Source of the DNA: Paramacrobiotus metropolitanus | Taxonomy: Eukaryota > Tardigrada > Eutardigrada > Parachela > Macrobiotidae | DNA: 64,000 nucleotides | Assembly: GCF_019649055.1 (NCBI RefSeq) | Contig: NW_026570282.1 | Location: 186,001-250,000 of the forward strand | Direction: 5' to 3' | Part shown: piece after piece, positions 4,187 to 63,445 of the stretch | Layout of the letters: every line of letters starts with the position of its first letter | Numbering within the stretch: the stretch's first letter is position 1 | Position numbers and translations under genes: made by a program | Notes under the pieces: model-generated | Databases searched by the model: none | What the model was told of the DNA's origin: nothing | Seen by the model: the letters and a program-made list of their open reading frames with translations, nothing else

Positions 4187-6033
4187 TCATTTCTTCAGAT
4201 ATGCATCGATTTTCGGGTCGTGCTTTACGGTGTCCACCACTTTCTTGACGTTGGGAAACTGCTCCGCGCAGTCCGCACCAGTCAGCTGTATGGTAATCAG
4301 CTGATCGACCACTGTAAAAATGTACTTCATTAGCAATAAATGAAAAACCTTTTTCCAGACTTGTTCCATCTTGTGTTTACAGGCAGACAATGCTCAGATG
4401 CTGCCTGTGTTTACACTGCTGAATTTGTAAGCAGAATTAAAAAGTGTACAACATTACAATACATACCGTTGAAAAGCGCCAGGTCAGCCAGCGACAACTG
4501 TAAAAAAGAGCGCAGACTCATAGTATGTACTATACAACAGCAGTATTTTACCATACTAATAATGTTCCAGTACTTACTAGTACTCGCACTTGTTTTGATA
4601 GGAACAACAAATACAGTAATATTATTGTGGCGATTATCATCTTGATAAGTTACCTTATTTCCAACCACATGTCCATCCTTCCCGTGTTCTTGGATGTATT
4701 TATCAAAGATTTTGAAAAATCCCGGAACGGTTTCGTCCTTGAACTTCTTTCCTTCAGCAGCCTAACAAGCAAATTTTGTATTCGTAAAAGAACAAGAAAT
4801 TTCATTTAATGCAGCCGCTAAGCTAGTTGTGCTTATCGAAAACTGAAATAATCACGATATGACCTACATTAATGAGAAAATGGTAATTAGCAGAATTACT
4901 GGCGGCGAAATTTTTTTGTAATTGGAGCATTTGGGAACTGCATCGTTCTCTCACTTACTAGTACTACATCGCAGATAATCTGACCTTTCAAGATCACTGC
5001 GTTTACCATGCACGATCTTCTTATTTTCGATTTACTATAGAGGAATATTGTATACCCTACACATTTATTATATACTTGTCCTTTAACTTTTAAATCATAT
5101 AAATACATGACCGTCAACAATACCTTTTGAGATTCCTCGGTTCCGTATATGACCTTCATAGCGGCTTGGAAGACGTCCATTGCCGCATCGTTGAACGAAT
5201 CGATAAGAGCCTCTTCCCATGCTCCCGATCCCATCAGGCCTGTATAACACACAAAACAACCAAGTCATGGTGTGACGCGCTAATCAATCAATACCGGTGC
5301 CACATACACGACCTTGAAATACCCCAACATGCACAGCTATCTAGCACACATCTGGGAATACACGAAAATTCTGTACAAAATAGGTACAGTATGCCTTTGC
5401 AGGCGAAGATGCAACACATACAGGTAGCTATAACAATTTCCGTCACGCACGAAAAGGGCGAGCTGATTTTCCCGTTAGGGACGTCTAATAACGCGATAAC
5501 AGTATCAATGAAAACAATTTTCACTTTGAAAACATTAAAAACATTGCAAACACAGTGGGTCGCGAGCTGGTGCAGTCATGAGATTTTTGCTAACAGAACG
5601 TTGCCGTTGCAATATATACAGCTGTGCATAACAGTACAGTAATTTAAAAAATTAAGTATGCTTTTTGAATTTCCTACCGTGCTGCCTGGCCACATAACGA
5701 ACCATGGCGCCGCTCTGTCCCAACATTTTTCCGTCCACTTCCAACACCGGCAGTTGTCCATAAGGAGTGCCTTAGAAACAAGTATATTAGTGCTTATAGT
5801 TATAACAGAAACAGCAAAAATAAAATATGCATGTTGAGAAAACAATAACCACAGTCTGGCCACGCTCTCGCGAAGCTTTTTAATTTATTGCCAATTATAC
5901 CAGGTTTCATTGTGCCCCAGTCGCCTTTTGCCAAACGGTTATCTTCAAACTTCTGTCCGGCCGCAGCCAGAACCAGGCGGGCGAGTTCACCGCGACCTTT
6001 CATATCGAAGTAGCTAACTTTGTAAGAAGGCAT
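4187..6033 (-). CDS. Sigma-class glutathione S-transferase 1
   Basis: Six exons: 5901-6033, 5678-5770, 5124-5239, 4654-4761, 4467-4497, 4187-4311, giving 201 aa, the usual sigma GST length. The N-terminal thioredoxin-like domain has the catalytic Tyr8 in YKVSYFDMKGRGE, the cis-Pro glutathione-site stretch TPYGQLPVLEVDGK, and GQSGAMVRYVA for gamma-glutamyl binding. The C-terminal helical domain includes GLMGSGAWEEALIDSF, HVVGNK and LSLADLALFNG. Cytosolic glutathione conjugation or isomerase activity is expected. It sits between the two hemopexin-domain genes on the same strand. Its second exon joins two coding parts that are split by an extra intron in the three GSTs at 54.8-63.4 kb. Confidence 0.95.
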
Positions 6034-54829: not shown

Positions 54830-57126
54830 TTATCTGCGAGTCTTTATATATTGCGCAACTCTCGGATTTTTTGCAACTTCGTTGTACACCGCTTTAGTTT
54901 TCGGATAAGGGTTGAGAAAAGTCACGGGGACTTTGACGAATTTCCACTCTTTCAGTAAATCGATAGCTGCAGTGTTTTATTGAGTTATGGTTAGGTATAT
55001 GTGCGCAACTAATTATTCGTTTATCCGGATGTGAAAGTGAAATTAACGATAACTGTTGGTATAGACACTTGAATTCTCATCCTAATAATACTTACGGGTC
55101 CACATAATTACTTGAAACTACAGATATGCAGTAGGTTGTGCAAACTGCAAACGTTCTACCATATCGGAACAATTTTACTTATTACAAGAATGAACTTCTG
55201 TGATATGGTTTCGTTTGCTGTATTGTAAGACTGCTATCCGTAATACAGTCTTTAAAATTTGAGTTATCGTAATTGACCAACTTACCGCAAAATAATGACA
55301 GGTCTGCAATTGTCAGCTGTAAACAGAAAGAGCTTAATCAAAAAATTAATACTTGTATTTTTCAGGGTAGAATTTGTAATTGCTAAAATCATAATAAGAA
55401 TGAATATTCTAATTGCTAATTGTAGAATTTGTAATCAGTAAACGATTATGCGCACAATCACATCAAATGCGTTCAGTCCAAAGATTTCGCCATAAATAAA
55501 CCTTATAATGGGTTTAACATAAATTATTTAAAGATTTTTCTCGCGGCTCTACCTGGTTATTATGTTAGCTGTGTGGAAGAGCTTGTAGCAGGGCGAACAC
55601 GACCGCAGTTTAATACAGTGGCAAAAACATGTAAGTACAAGTACACAGCCTGTACTACGAGTACATACATGTAAGTCAGGATACAGTACCTTATTTCCAA
55701 CGTTAACAACATGTCCGTTTGATCCATACTGGGTAATAAATTTCTCCATGTTTCGGAAAATTGTCGGTAATGTATCGGTCATGAATATATTGGTAGCATT
55801 TTTCTACAAAATTAAAGAAAACAGTGTTCAACAATTTTTTACAACTTGAGATGAATGTTATTAAGAGTTCGTAATCGCTGCCTAGTGTAGGTGCAGTTGC
55901 ATATGGCTGCAACTCAGCCTGCAAGTGTCATTTGTTGATAACTCTTTTACAATGTTTACGGGGGTTCAATCAACATCATACCGACATAATTAAATAGCTT
56001 GAATTAAGAATCGGACGACACACCTTATCGCTTTCGGGGGTATGGAATAAAATCGTTACTGTTCCATCATAAATCTCCAAGGCCTTTTCCACAATTGAGC
56101 CGGCCAAAGCTTGTTCCCAGTCTCCACCAGGCAAAAACCCTATATGGATAATTGTTCGCGTCATGTTGCCAGTAAGAGTGGGATGTATTGTACATAAGTA
56201 CAGATACAATATTTGTTTTAATACTGCACTTAATGTCTTTTTTTAAATGCTGCAATGTGACTAAATGGTATTTGCAATTTCAAATGGATTACAGTACGTT
56301 GATATACACGCAAATTTTTCTAAATTTAATGCTTAAAATCTATGAATGAATAACAGAATTTACTGCTAGAACAAACTTTGTTGGAAAAAACGCGTTTAAA
56401 ATAACAGAGTTCCGTATTTACACTTGCAAGTGCATCTATATATTTGCGTACGGCGCACATAATAATATATTTACGTACCGAAACGTTGTCCCAAAAACCT
56501 GATAATTGGTTTGGCCTCTCCTAAAACTTTTCCATCGACCTCTGGAGAAGTCAAATTTTTAAATTAGCAGCACTACGAGTAGCATGGCTTAATAACACTC
56601 GCTAGTATTATGGTGCCATGGCATTAGTGCACTACAATCCTGTAATATTAATAAGTTTTTCGGGCATAACAAGATCTGCTGTTTCCTCTCTCGCAGCAAA
56701 GTAAACTGGAAAATAAGAAATCCGTGGACACCAATCAAAATTCAAAGTCGTAAGTGGAGTCAGTTTAGCGCAATAGGTATGTTCTTACTTCTTACCAAGA
56801 TATGGCAGTGTTCCCCAAGGAGTTTCTAAAAGGATCCGCATTACAGTAAATAGTGTAATAAACAAACAAATTAAAGGCGTTTGGAATGCAGGAGTTATTG
56901 TGAACATACTCGCTTTGAAAGTTCCCGGCCATTGCGACTCAGTTATTCGAAAGTCAGTAAATTTTTGTCCAGCAGCGGCAAATGTAATCCGCATAAATTC
57001 ACCGCGACCACGAGAATCAAAATAAACCAGCTTGTAATTATTTGTATGCGCAGGAGTGCCAGCTGAAATTACGGATTTACATAGCAATAAAGTGTAAAAA
57101 TAGAGAATATTTATTAAACTAGACAT
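54830..57126 (-). CDS. Sigma-class GST 2 with N-terminal signal peptide
   Basis: Seven exons, the first 56910-57126, giving 235 aa. The mature part is a normal sigma GST: catalytic Tyr35 in [74 protein letters not shown] and the C-terminal YIKTRR. It is preceded by about 25 extra residues, [20 protein letters not shown] then SAGTPA, a hydrophobic secretion signal. GST 3 and GST 4 instead start Met-x-x-Tyr, and both have a splice acceptor just before that Met. Here the matching codon is GCG, not ATG, and a remnant TTTCAG lies upstream, now read as coding. Export from the cell is therefore predicted. The linker HVVNVGNK has two residues more than GST 1. Confidence 0.92.
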
Positions 57127-58093
57127 TTTCCTTAAGACCGGACAAATGTAACGAAAGCCAAATGAGAAATTGTAAAAACAACACTTTTATGAATTCAGTT
57201 TTTAAATGACTTTCGTCGAAGTGTTAATGGTTTTTATAAGTTACGGGGAGGAGAGCGCGGCATAAGATACAGCAACATTCAGTGCATGCAGTTTAGTTTT
57301 TCGTTACCCGAAGAGCGAAAGTTAAGGTTGTACACTTTAGGGCTTCGTGGTTTCAGGCGCTTTTTGTGTGTTTTACATTAGTATGAGTACTAGTTAAAAT
57401 TCACAGTAATCGAAACGCATTGTTGCGGTCGAGATTTAAAATTCTACGTGGTTGCTGGTTAATTACGATACCTCAATCACCTTGTACCGGTATGGACCTA
57501 TCGGTACCGGTTTGTAGGCGTCCGCCGTGATGGTCTTTATTTACGAGTATTATGTACTTCGAAATTTAATGCCTTTAATGTACTGTACATTGTACGTCTG
57601 CGTATACTATATAAATATACGTATGTTCCATACGGTTGATGCGTCTTACAAGTCGGCTTGCTCACCATCAATAAAGTATCCCGTGTATTTAATAAACCAT
57701 TACAGCCCCAAAGCATTGTCTGACGGCCGCAACTTTTTATGTTTATGCGCGCTGTTTACCGCCGCGCTTTAGACATAACATGGATCATCATTTATGATAT
57801 AGAATAACGATATCTGATCATGAGTTATTTTAAAGATCAAAGCATGGCGATGGAAAGTGCAAAGAAAAGAAGCTGATTTTGAGTACGAAAATGTAATTAG
57901 ATACCTTTTCGGCCCGGATGCAAAAGTAGATCGCATGCGTTTATTGTGAGTTGCATTCATTCTGAAATATTTCCTTACGGAAATCAACCATGTTGTATAC
58001 GTTCTAATAGTACTTATTAATAATTAATGACAGTAAATCAAGTTTAATTAGTAACTAAGTTTTGTGCAGGTCCAGTTCGCCGTTGTTACTTTG
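57127..58093. other. Spacer between GST 2 and GST 3
   Basis: GST 2 promoter side and GST 3 3' flank. The open frames here lack any recognisable feature. Confidence 0.5.
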
Positions 58094-59742
58094 CTATTTG
58101 CGTGTCTGGAGGTAGTGGGCCACCTTTTCATTGTGGGCAGTCTTATCCAAAACAGCCTTGAGTTTAGGATACGGCGTCAAGAATGCAGCTGGATCTTTGA
58201 CGAACTTCCATTCTTTTAAAAGGTCAATTGCTAAAAAAACATCGATTTACCTGCGATTCTAATAAGTGTGGTGCACCTACTTCTTCATATTTCTGACGAC
58301 AGCAAAATTTGGGAAACCGGCAGCCTCTCTACACTTTTGGTAAATTAAAAACAAGTTACCTGCTGCAAATACTACAAAAGATGTAACTCAGAAATTCTTG
58401 GAAAAACAGTTTTTGTGGCAAATATATGCTTTGATTCAGTCTATTTGTGTTACATTATGTACATATTTCATTAAAAGCCTAAAATGCTTTTCTGAGAGGC
58501 GGACAATAAGGAAGACTTACCACAAAACATGGACAGATCCGCAGTTGTCAGCTAAAATAGAAAAACAACGTAGGATTTAAGTTCGACATACCGTATGATG
58601 CAGTGCGAAGTTTTTTTGTTGTGACTACCTTGCTTCCGTAACAATGGCCGTGAGTGCCATGTTGGGTGACGAATTTTTCTACGTCTTTGAGGATTGTAGG
58701 GACACTGACTTCCATGTACTCTTTGGTTGCATTAGCCTAATTGTACGCAAAAAATTTCACAACGCTTAACAGGGATGCTCGCGCGCTCCTCACATACGAG
58801 TACAACTATTACAATGCGCTAATTGTACGTGAATATTAAGTTACTGATTTTCAAAATGCTTTAATTATGCACAATTCGAGTTGTAATAATACTAGCACCA
58901 AACGGTGAATAACCTTTTCGCCATCTGGAGTCTTAAAAAGAATCTTGACCATGCCGTCGTAGATGTCCATAGCCTTTTCCACAATAGAGCTTGCCAAGGC
59001 TTGATCCCAGTCTCCACTTGGAAGCAGACCTTTGACAGAGAATGTGGTTTTTAGCATAAGGTCGAAATGAAATATTCGCATGCAGCGATGTTTTTTTTAA
59101 AAATGCAACCGGTAAGAAACCGGAAGAAAAACAAGTGCTCGAATACAGCAAGTATTCGCATGCATTGCCTAAGCACCCACGATTACGAAACGAAACCGTC
59201 AATAAACTTACATTTTACCGGCAGAAAAGCACGTGCACAAGTACCGATTCAAAGCTCCTTACCGAAACGCTGCCCTAAAAGGCGGATAATAACTTTCGTC
59301 TCTCCGAGTGGCTTGCCGTCCACCTCTGGTAACAAAAGATATTATTATTGCGTATAAAGATCGATAAAAAATACGTGAAAAATGTAATGCTGAGCATTCC
59401 ATAAAAAAAATAGCATTACCTAAGTAAGGCACAGTTCCCCATGGAGTCTCTGTAACGATATGCGTTGATAACCCAACACTTTACTCCTTGTAAATCTGGA
59501 CGTCGACTTCAGCATTTCAGGACAATACACTTAAATTGCTGCAGTTTCACCAAGCGCCAAAATTCTCAGTTCTTAAAACGGAAATACAGATAGATTTGTT
59601 AAAAATTACTCGGTTTGAAAGCCGGCCAGTCTGGGGTTGCTACGCGGTAATCTTCGAATTTCTGTCCAGCGGTGGCAAAAAGTAGTCGAACAAATTCCCC
59701 GCGACCGCGTCCATCGAAATATACTAGTTTATAAGTATGCAT
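58094..59742 (-). CDS. Sigma-class GST 3
   Basis: Seven exons, the first 59610-59742, giving 205 aa. Catalytic Tyr8 in [20 protein letters not shown], then [69 protein letters not shown] and [14 protein letters not shown], ending LQTRK. It is the closest paralogue of GST 2 (both have [17 protein letters not shown] and a TR[RK] end). The acceptor CTACAG 18 nt before the ATG implies a 5' untranslated exon. Cytosolic. Confidence 0.95.
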
Positions 59743-61736
59743 TTCGGTAGGTGAATCCGATCTGTAGAAACGTAATACGTAAGTACATTACCATTTACCA
59801 GATGTTGAAATAAATTTGGTTTAAAGTGGATTGTTAAACTGTACTTACAATTACGTATTTTTTACCTACTTATGCAGGCAAGAAGATGGATTCTATGTCC
59901 TATAGGTAGAGACTTTACGGCATCAGTAGAACAATACACAGTATGGTTTCGGGCATTAACGTCTGAACATCAACCACTATTTACAGTAAAACCAGAGCTA
60001 AAACAAAGCGGATGTAAATAATCAGTGCACTACCAAAGCCGTTAGCTGCTGGGTTTTCGTTTTACTGAAATATTCAAATCGTAATGCGCAACTGTCAGTC
60101 GCTAGTATTGTCATTTTTGATAATCTAAAGTTTGTCACTGCTGTCAGACATTTTAGAAAGCACGAGGTTAGATTTTAAATAAATCTTAAATCTTCCTTAC
60201 CCGTAAAATGTCTCAAGATTTCGGAGGTTCTGAATTTGGTTCTTCTGGGATTTATCTGTACTATCTATTAACTATACTTCCAGTTCTATCAATGAAAACG
60301 TGCAAGACTACTGAACCACATTTAGTATTCCAACCGCCACAAACTGCTGCACAACGGTTTATTCTTGCGACCGTTCTTATGCTTTGGAACTAACACATGT
60401 TCAGCTTGCACACAGTTTTTGAGTTTAACGTGCCTGGAACAATATTGGGAATCTGCTTTCACAGCCGGCGGAACCGGTACAGCACAATACGGTTGCTGCA
60501 TGGTCCTAGCGAAGCCGTCATTACTCGGCGATTCTGCACAATCGTGGTTGTTTATGTACCAGCTGAGCTGTTTGCTCGCCGAATGCTGTACGGCGTTTTG
60601 TACGGTGTTCCCAGCCGGTTGCACGTTGCAGCAGAGTAAACATTATCAATTAAAAAAACTATGGCTGCTACATGCGAAGCAGCAAAAAATACCGATAAGT
60701 ACGGTACTACTTGTACAAAGAAAATATAATAATTATCATCTATACTTGAAGGACCAAATAATTGTCTAACTACAGTGTATTTACATATATCACAGTCTGT
60801 TGGTTAGTGCGAAACAGCACTTGTATCTTGCGAAGTTAGCACAAAACGAATTCGAGAAGCTACGTTATTAAACAGGACTTACGTGGCATTAGTAGATTCT
60901 GGAGATGAAGCCTCACCAAAACTTATTCCACAAAAAAGCAAAGACTGCAGGGCAATTAAACCAAAATTCCGTAGGGGTCCCATCCTGCAAGGTCACGTTT
61001 TTAGCTGCTGTTTCAGTTTATTTGCAAAGGACTTGCTGCACCTACATGCACCTTTTAAAATCAGGTGAACCTGCTTTTTATGTCAAACTGCAACCGGAAA
61101 AATGTATCCCAACCCGGACAGACTTGGACCGATCAAATCAGACGTCGATTTCAATCAGTAATCAAAACCGATGCTTGCTTTACGTTTCTGTGTACGCTAA
61201 ACTGATTAATAATTAGGTGAGTGAAATAGAATTACTGTTATGTGTGGATTACTGCTATATGTCAAGAAATTTATTTTGTTGATCGTCGCAGCTGATGTGT
61301 GAAAGTGCATCTCATAATTAAAAACTAAAAAATTTGGCGCAATAAAAAGGAAGAATCCCACAGTTTTGAGTCTAAATTTTCAAGTTATAAGGAGAAATTG
61401 CAGGACTTGAGTAGCAGATTTCCCTTTTACTGATAACCAGTTGTCCAGGGATCAGAACTATAAAATTATAATTTATACCGATGTGTGGATATGTGTACGT
61501 AGACCCCCGACCGTCTCTAAATTTTGTAAAACTCTTTACGCTTTCGACGTGCAGTAAGCGTCCTGGTTGATTAAAATCGTAATTTAATCGCATCGATAGG
61601 TGACTGACAGATCTAACCCTTAAAATATGATAGCATCAGGCGGAAATTCTATGCGTACAGTACAACATTTGATTCTCGATACCGCAGTAATCATTTTTAA
61701 CTAACAACAGCACGTGAATAATGTCACGTTACTGGC
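59743..61736. other. Long spacer between GST 3 and GST 4
   Basis: One minus-strand frame of about 100 codons (60630-60322) is rich in spaced cysteines (NNHDCAE, QQPYC, DSQYC, LKNC, PLCSS), but it begins just after a stop with no ATG or acceptor, so I do not call a gene. Overlapping plus-strand frames are equally unsupported. Confidence 0.4.
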
Positions 61737-63445
61737 TTAATGCTTTTTAGCGTATCCTGAGAGTTTGTCGTGACTGCGGACTTTGTTCACAACCTCCTTC
61801 ACTTTGGGGAAGCCATCAATGAAATCCTTCGTAGTTAGATTGAGGAGAAGTGTGGAGTCCAGCACTGGCAAAAGTCCGAAGTTAGATTTAAGAACAAAAT
61901 TACCAATTATTGCAAATCGTAACTTTCTTCCTCGACAGACAGAAGTAGCTGTTCAATAGCTTTGCTTTTGCCGTAATTAATTGTTAACGGAGATTACATT
62001 CCCGTCCTGTAACCGTACCGTTGTAGATTGCAATATCCGCTGCGGTAATCTGTCAGCACAAAACGTAAAGGTCATAGTGGCATTTTAGAAAATAGCAAAG
62101 GTAACGTCAAGGTGGATAGGTAATGTAAAAGCTTATGCAAATGCCGTTGGTAAATAAGTTTTTATTCAGAAAAGGTGACTTATTTTACCCGTGTGAAGAT
62201 CACTGAACATTGTCGCGCCGGGAAAACTGTACTCGTACCTTGTTTCCCACGGTATACCCGTTTGTCCCGTGTTCGGAAATAAATTTCTCCCAATACTTTA
62301 GGGCTGGATTGAAAATTTCTTGTTGATATTTTTGACCTTCAGTCGCCTTTATCAAATCAAATGTGCAGGAAATTAAGACAGATGTATCGCATGAAGGTAT
62401 TTGGGCACCATGGCCACCTTTTGTCCTTCTGGCGACATAACAACTTTTCCCATCGCCGTAAAAATATCGGATGTTGCCGCTACTACGGATTCGACCAGTG
62501 CTTGTTCCCATTCGTTTTCTCCAGCGAGACCTGACATTTAAGCAGGAAAGTGTGTACGTTGCATATGCAACGCAATGTGTAAAGTTGTGTTTGCTGACCG
62601 TATCGCCGTGCTAAAAAGTTGACAATAGCACTGGTTTGCGCCAGTTTTTGTCCGTCCACTTCCAAAACTAAAAAAAATAGGTTCTGCATTACATATCAAC
62701 CGCTAAAAGCCTATAACAAGTGTAATTTATTTGCAAAAGCCGTATCAGTTACTTTAAATTGTGGGTTAGATGCATGTTAAAATACTTATTCATGGAATGA
62801 GCGATAAATGCGAAAGACGATATTAAGAAATCCATGCATACTTGGCAGCTGTCCAAACGGTGTGTCTAAAAAAACAAAGAAAAAACTGGGATGTACAGTA
62901 TAATTATTTGTATTATATGAGTACGCGTACCACCACTACGTTAAAACTGAAATATTTGTACATACCAAGACGGCACTTAACAACTGTGTTCTTGATGTAT
63001 AAGAGACATTATAGAAATGCAAAATACACGTGGCAGGCGTAATTCACAGTTAATGCTAGTTTTGAGAAATAAAGTTAAGTACCTCTCTAGGCCTACGCAG
63101 CTTCTTTAGAACCAAACAATTTTTTTTCCTGCGCAGTTTAAGTAACCATATTGTTGTGCAGGAAGGAATCCGCTTCGACTACCGCTTTCTAACTTAATTT
63201 GTGTTTGAAATATGCACTACCCCTTGCACTTAAATTAACTAATTATTGTGCTTAAATTAACTAATTTTTGTAATTAGGTGTTGAGTTGGAAGATATTTTT
63301 TCCGCTTACTGGATTTCAAGGAGGGCCAGTCTTGGAAAGCCACGGGCACTTCCTCCCATTTTTGACCGATGGCTGTTAGCAGCAGACGTACGTATTCTCC
63401 ACGGCCTCGAGCACCCTCCCAGTACATCAGTTTATAATTAGGCAT
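61737..63445 (-). CDS. Sigma-class GST 4
   Basis: Seven exons, the first 63310-63445, giving 202 aa. Catalytic Tyr8 in MPNYKLMYWEGARGRGEYVR, with one residue more than its paralogues in the first loop. Then TPFGQLPILEVDGQKLAQTS, NFLARRYG, GLAGENEWEQALVESVVAAT, GYTVGNK, ITAADIAIYNG, ending GYAKKH. The C-terminal half (TVGNK, IYNG, VV.KV..HDK) resembles GST 1 more than GST 2/3, while the intron that splits exon 2 is shared with GST 2/3. The acceptor CAGCTCAG before the ATG implies an upstream untranslated exon. Confidence 0.94.

Follow-up and report, generated by a model that had tools for sequence, protein, structure and literature searches.

Sister sigma-like glutathione S-transferases with predicted signal peptides in a tardigrade gene cluster

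Two genes of a tardigrade glutathione S-transferase (GST) cluster, GST2 and GST3, most likely encode exported sigma-like GSTs, as predicted from their sequences, and the export of both most likely goes back to a single origin. The explanation that we favor, with a probability of roughly 0.6, is that export was gained once, after the split from GST5, and that GST2 later acquired an intronless leader and lost its Met. The two sister proteins would enter the secretory pathway by way of N-terminal signal peptides.

The window analyzed, a stretch of 64,000 nucleotides (contig C62, positions 186001–250000), is part of a 169.8-Mb genome assembly of 533 contigs. It carries a cluster of sigma-like GST genes on the minus strand, of which we built six complete models by hand:

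4187–6033, minus strand: GST1, 201 amino acids, cytosolic form beginning MPSYKV, about 49 kb from GST2 (model and tree)
54830–57126, minus strand: GST2, 235 codons in seven exons (model)
58094–60983, minus strand: GST3, including a putative upstream signal-peptide exon (model)
61737–63445, minus strand: GST4, 202 amino acids, cytosolic form beginning MPNYKL (model)
C62:252359–254269, minus strand: GST5, just past the window end (model)
C62:255086–256610, minus strand: GST6, just past the window end (model)

All six models are in frame with GT-AG introns, the positions of which are largely common to the cluster, and the splice-site matrices used throughout were built from 34 introns of our own models. 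Between GST4 and GST5, at about 450–2030 of segment L001, an ORF-bearing stretch is flanked by repeated gggtgcctataat-like motifs, as seen by eye, and is perhaps a DNA transposon remnant. Comparison across the genome covered 19 loci, drawn from GST_N profile matches that closely match GST3. One contig (C50:224174–582457) carries all eight of the strongest GST_N matches in the genome, in long open frames (137–266 codons), which may mark a bacterial symbiont contig or transferred genes; at C39:910119–911417 a pair of sigma-like GSTs in head-to-head orientation, their matches about 750 bp apart, possibly shares a promoter.

The preliminary description of this DNA had delimited GST2 at 54830–57126, which is exactly the coding span of our model, from an ATG at 57126 to a stop at 54830, with an unbroken frame and GT-AG introns. 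A pseudogene is ruled out by the intact seven-exon model. The parts of the gene are as follows:

57232–57238, minus strand: TATAAAA (pattern scan), a putative promoter element that begins 112 nt ahead of the ATG
56910–57126, minus strand: exon 1, comprising leader codons 1–22 (57126–57061), an eight-residue linker and the start of the GST domain (in-frame spliced model)
57063–57068, minus strand: acceptor-like TTTCAG, translated through (acceptor matrix score 6.7)
56825–56796, 56541–56479, 56139–56024, 55803–55690, 55316–55286 and 54966–54830, minus strand: exons 2–7 (model and Pfam)

The ATG at 57126 is the first of the gene; the 130 nt upstream contain no other, and the upstream frame has stops. 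Transcription would probably start just below the TATA box. The leader is hydrophobic, although without a basic residue in its n-region, and gave a von Heijne score of 4.5 with a predicted cut after Ala22. The score for GST3 was 4.8, and both lie above the customary threshold of 3.5, compared with no more than 1.1 for the 15 full N-termini among 17 other loci; the remaining two loci were C2, a fragment only (-4.6), and C24, for which there is no score. The von Heijne counts behind these scores were entered by hand. The preliminary description had held that an upstream ATG reads through TTTCAG and adds a hydrophobic N-terminus, and had proposed signal-peptide prediction as a check; the leader does cross 57068–57063, and it is hydrophobic and, by its score, signal-like.

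We set thresholds of 3.5 for the score and 1.8 for hydropathy and scanned for read-through signal peptides, which appeared in only 22 of 5000 Markov shuffles of the 400 nt upstream of GST2 itself, so that a chance origin of the leader is unlikely. Among the 17 loci scanned, a read-through signal was present in GST2 only (0 of 16 others). The next in-frame Met after the leader start is Met45, past the conserved YKLVYF. Most likely, in our view, the upstream ATG is the start codon of GST2 and the protein is exported, as predicted; this ATG would open a signal peptide of 22 residues that runs straight on into the GST domain, with cleavage after Ala22.

The domain start itself lacks a Met (A26 H T N N Y31), as had been noticed before. 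The accompanying claim, that the lost Met is now a GCG codon (57051–57049), is plausible if GCGCATACA is paired with ATGCATACT of GST3, but it depends on the alignment, since this pairing needs two inserted Asn codons and MAFFT instead sets Thr28 of GST2 opposite the Met. The paralogues had been said to start Met-x-x-Tyr, which holds for the domain starts of GST1, GST3, GST4, and GST5 (MPSY, MHTY, MPNY, and MPHY, respectively) but not for that of GST6 (MPQSF).

The model of GST3 differs in the layout of its leader:

60883–60983, minus strand: signal-peptide exon, encoding MGPLRNFGLIALQSLLFCGISFG followed by EASSPESTNA, with the phase 2 donor CAC/GTAAGT
59610–59761, minus strand: exon 2, with a phase 2 acceptor, the linker SDSPTE, the old Met (residue 41) and the start of the GST domain
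59449–59420, 59325–59263, 59029–58914, 58736–58629, 58551–58521 and 58230–58094, minus strand: exons 3–8 (model; Pfam GST_N and GST_C_3)

The signal exon consists of 33 open codons and two bases, lies 1.1 kb upstream of the acceptor at 59761 and joins it in frame; the predicted cut follows Gly23. The acceptor scores 8.5 and lies 19 nt before the old Met, and the six codons between them, SDSPTE, continue the SSPESTNA linker, so that the sequence is rich in S, T, P, E, D, and N on both sides of the junction. The GST3 signal peptide would sit on an exon of its own; after removal of a 1.1-kb phase 2 intron, a short linker rich in Ser, Thr, Pro, and Glu and then the domain would follow, and the former cytosolic start Met would now be internal. 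The signal exon had a single match in the genome, which lends no support to its being a repeat copy, although such searches can miss weak matches.

Our scan for signal exons covered 17 of the 19 loci (all but C2 and C24), took acceptors up to 60 nt from the domain start that passed a 10th-percentile threshold, and reached 3 kb upstream (2,656 nt for C6p). Within these 3 kb no signal exon was found for GST1, GST4, GST5, or GST6, with GST1 and GST5 having no qualifying acceptor, and none of the four has a signal-like N-terminus by von Heijne scoring. The GST4 acceptor (score 7.4) ends 16 nt before the ATG and is likely a 5' UTR acceptor, as is that of GST6, 19 nt before its ATG. The preliminary description had placed a 5' UTR acceptor just before the Met in both GST3 and GST4; this stands for GST4, but for GST3 the in-frame signal-peptide exon upstream makes a 5' UTR acceptor improbable. 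The view of GST3 as the untranslated ancestral state, and of GST2 as the only gene to have gained a signal, is likewise not supported, for the sister gene appears to carry a coding signal exon of its own.

GST2 and GST3 are sisters in a six-gene full-length tree (ultrafast bootstrap 98, SH-aLRT 96), with GST5 next to the pair (98/98). In an N-domain tree of 15 of the 19 loci (C2, C3, C24, and C40 left out) the pair holds (98/93), but GST5 is not placed beside it. Because both sisters have a predicted signal and none was found for GST1, GST4, GST5, and GST6, the most parsimonious and in our view most likely course is that predicted export was gained once, in the GST2/GST3 ancestor before the two split; we infer that this followed the split from cytosolic GST5. 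The leader DNAs show no similarity beyond chance (973 of 1000 shuffles aligned as well), so that the single origin rests on parsimony. The similarity of the leader proteins is weak, yet most shuffles fall short of it, as 9 of 2000 full shuffles and 49 of 2000 regional ones reach its score. Between the two genes dN is 0.25 and synonymous sites are saturated, which points to long purifying selection on the GST domain. GST2 and GST3 share the position of an N-x-T sequon (N144 and N156, respectively), which is absent there from GST1, GST4, GST5, and GST6; GST4 and GST6 carry one elsewhere, and the GST3 linker has an additional sequon at N32 (NAT).

The stepwise route from a cytosolic to an exported GST that had been proposed survives in altered form, as a graded series in which GST3 would be an intermediate and not an untouched ancestor. 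GST4 and GST6 have an acceptor in the UTR and their own cytosolic Met; in GST3 the acceptor would have come to lie within the coding region, so that former UTR would now encode the linker and the old start codon an internal Met; GST2, at the end of the series, has no Met at the domain start and would need no splice. The distance from acceptor to Tyr codon is 26 nt in GST2 (from TTTCAG), 28 in GST3, 25 in GST4, and 31 in GST6. The direction of the steps, from GST4/GST6 through GST3 to GST2, is one that we infer. In the last of them the GST2 leader would have come to be read without an intron and the old Met would have been lost.

How GST2 came by its leader admits several answers, among them that it is former 5' UTR or intron DNA, which is possible. 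Somewhat short of even odds, in our judgment, stands descent from a GST3-like signal exon after loss of the intron. Both sister genes have predicted signals, the leader proteins show the weak similarity noted above (49 of 2000 regional shuffles), and secretion need have been gained only once, with a single intron lost; it would, however, require that this intron alone was lost, the other six being kept in both genes, and the leader DNAs do not align.

We regard as rather doubtful the proposal, a refinement of the route in the preliminary description, that the leader is a former intron, in which an ancestral 5' intron ended at TTTCAG and a new promoter arose inside it, whether as an independent gain or in place of a GST3-like signal exon. 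The polypyrimidine tract would then be translated as the hydrophobic core, and the acceptor would supply the Ser-Ala cut. The specific version in which the GST2 signal peptide is a translated intron end, read from a promoter in the ancestral first intron and replacing a GST3-like signal exon, is unlikely. In keeping with a former intron, the 66-nt leader is 47% T, the TATA box and the ATG-free stretch of 130 nt lie upstream, and TTTCAG lies at the homologous place with a score of 6.7, compared with a median of 7.6 over 34 modelled introns. Local DNA is expected to provide an acceptor-like site in the 9-nt slot in 2.4% of cases, which makes an "old acceptor" here only mildly surprising. Moreover, T-rich codons for a signal core with Ser-Ala codons after them look like an acceptor, and codon shuffling recreated such a site in 415 of 20000 trials that moved every leader codon and in 1552 of 20000 that moved only codons 2–22. 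The phases also differ, being 1 at the GST2 site and 2 at the GST3 acceptor.

Similarity to the GST3 intron is likewise at the level of chance. In an end-anchored comparison of the GST2 leader with GST3 intron 1, 526 of 2000 shuffles were at least as good, and that intron fell outside the ten best of 37 intron ends; in local alignments with intron ends or upstream DNA of GST3, GST4, GST5, and GST6, shuffles matched or beat the real score in 307, 343, 133, and 732 of 1000 cases, respectively. The test is low in power, since five of the six truly homologous GST2/GST3 intron pairs also did no better than shuffles, with the sixth somewhat better (20 of 500).

A signal exon matching the phase 1 of TTTCAG was not found within 3 kb upstream of GST2. 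Splicing past GST3 to use its signal exon was rejected, since a phase 2 donor joined to the phase 1 site of GST2 would be out of frame. An excess of phase 1 introns close to signal cleavage sites across eukaryotic genes is described in the available part of PMC1626468, and the GST2 site is likewise phase 1, in the codon of the -1 residue; given that enrichment, a lost phase 1 intron and mimicry are both possible. Human signal-peptide genes tend to be without 5' UTR introns, as stated in the available part of PMC3077370, and GST2 likewise has a leader and no 5' intron in our model, which fits but proves nothing. A search of the literature for signal peptides derived from noncoding DNA gave no paper that matched most of the terms, and one combining polypyrimidine tract, exonization, and signal peptide returned titles of which none was on the subject.

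It seems improbable that the GST3 signal exon is accidental, or part of another small gene, and that only GST2 is secreted. Chance does yield such exons: of 3000 shuffles, 65 produced one equal to that of GST3 and 183 any qualifying signal exon, and of 140 real windows of 1.9 kb, 4 contained an equal exon and 10 any. The real windows took in coding DNA, so that some of their four matches may be true signal exons. The 1.1-kb intron has ten further acceptors above the threshold, including one that scores higher (9.2) than the acceptor at 59761, and these would leave tails of 2 to 64 residues; such alternatives, for example the acceptor at 60433, and a candidate of the same kind on contig C40 give the accidental reading some weight. 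Against it stand the in-frame join to a well-scoring acceptor, the linker composition that spans the junction, the sequon common to both GST domains, and the leader of the sister gene. We judge the evidence for the GST3 signal exon to be good but not decisive.

Inside the proposed first intron of GST3 lies an open stretch of 106 codons with several Cys (window 60642–60325, minus strand), a single match in the genome, as is the segment 60300–60660 near the signal exon. An acceptor at 60433 (score 7.5) could let the signal exon splice into part of this stretch, which would add a tail of 37 residues, two of them Cys. On contig C40, an ORF starting MLPTWPCPLLLACLIGMTLAVSRA, about 430 to 270 nt upstream of a GST exon at C40:379804 (plus strand), has a signal score of 9.05 and could join a sigma-like GST in frame via a weak acceptor; as a second hydrophobic stretch results from the join, we judged this signal exon to be accidental.

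That neither leader exports, GST2 using an unseen upstream exon or GST3 starting at Met41 from an internal promoter so that both are cytosolic, is distinctly improbable: GST3 does retain a usable internal Met, but GST2 without its leader would start at Met45, beyond the conserved YKLVYF, and the 3 kb upstream yielded no signal exon of matching phase.

GST2 exceeds the Pfam cut-offs for GST_C_3 (62.9 bits; cut-off 21.6), GST_N_3 (26.9; 22), and GST_C (23.0; 20.7), scores 25 for GST_N_2 (printed cut-off 25), and falls just below the cut-off for GST_N (20.7; 20.9), and GST3 is above the cut-off for all five Pfam GST models. The best 60 matches shown for the two proteins include 2hnl, 3w8s, 2ws2, 4q5f, 2wb9, 3vpq, and HPGDS entries; several of these structures are named just "Glutathione S-transferase," and we take them to be of the sigma or sigma-like class. 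YKLVYF, present in GST2 and GST3, is the first-strand motif YKLxYF of the catalytic Tyr, a role that we assume from Tyr8 of HPGDS.

Sigma GSTs are normally cytosolic. The available part of PMC6939172 describes secreted sigma GSTs of Onchocerca with a cleavable signal peptide and an extension, each of 25 residues, as well as N-glycans, calls the signal peptide and extension of Onchocerca GST1 absent from other GSTs, and gives 2hnl as the O. volvulus sigma GST. This structure is the best solved-structure sequence match for GST2 and GST3 and the ninth for cytosolic GST5. Our two proteins resemble the secreted, glycosylated OvGST1a/1b of Onchocerca volvulus and OoGST1 of O. ochengi in their sigma-class fold and predicted cleavable signal peptide. 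The extension with an N-glycosylation sequon of Onchocerca GST1 has a possible counterpart in that of GST3 (20 residues, NAT at 32), whereas the GST2 extension has 8 residues and no sequon within. In a tree of 11 proteins, of which just five came from outside and were taken from among the PDB matches listed, GST2, GST3, and OvGST1 formed one clade in 0% of 200 bootstrap trees, and the well-supported branches force two changes. On this tree we reject export shared with OvGST1 by descent, and since the three proteins form no clade, predicted export in GST2/GST3 and export in Onchocerca look convergent.

The Gln-Ser/Thr of GST1, GST4, GST5, and GST6, presumably the glutathione motif, is replaced by Glu-Ala in GST2 (56541–56479, minus strand) and by Glu-Thr in GST3 (59325–59263, minus strand). 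In the next exon, the Asp kept by GST1, GST5, and GST6, which we take to reach the glutathione of the neighboring subunit, is Gly in GST2, Ser in GST3, and Glu in GST4. In the alignment OvGST1 also has Glu-Ser and is without the Asp, and because of these similar changes the altered residues do not exclude activity. We would call GST2 and GST3 sigma-like and not proven enzymes. Glutathione use may have shifted in these predicted secreted forms.

A parallel exists in the glutathione synthetase-like effectors of cyst nematodes (PMC5919673, available part), where a housekeeping glutathione enzyme was likewise duplicated and paralogues gained a signal peptide; the enzyme is a different one, glutathione synthetase, and an effector role and gland expression are shown there. 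The words "intron" and "UTR" do not occur in the available part of that paper, which under those words does not treat the origin of the leader. Among the papers listed by our literature searches, no title or abstract opening describes a tardigrade GST with a signal peptide, which does not prove absence; the available parts of PMC11313143 and PMC5531438 mention tardigrade GSTs and no secreted one.

If the favored reading of GST2 and GST3 is true, they would be a second, independent case of secreted sigma GSTs, this time in a tardigrade. Two sister genes with two leader layouts, beside cytosolic paralogues, would then form a small natural series from a cytosolic enzyme to export. Were the translated-intron origin general, secretion signals could readily arise from the 3' ends of introns, since their T-rich tracts encode Phe, Leu, and Ile and an acceptor in the right frame provides small residues for the cut. 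An extracellular role may differ from ordinary conjugation, as the changes at the glutathione site of both proteins suggest, and predicted export would place glutathione-type chemistry outside the cells of an animal group known for its stress tolerance.
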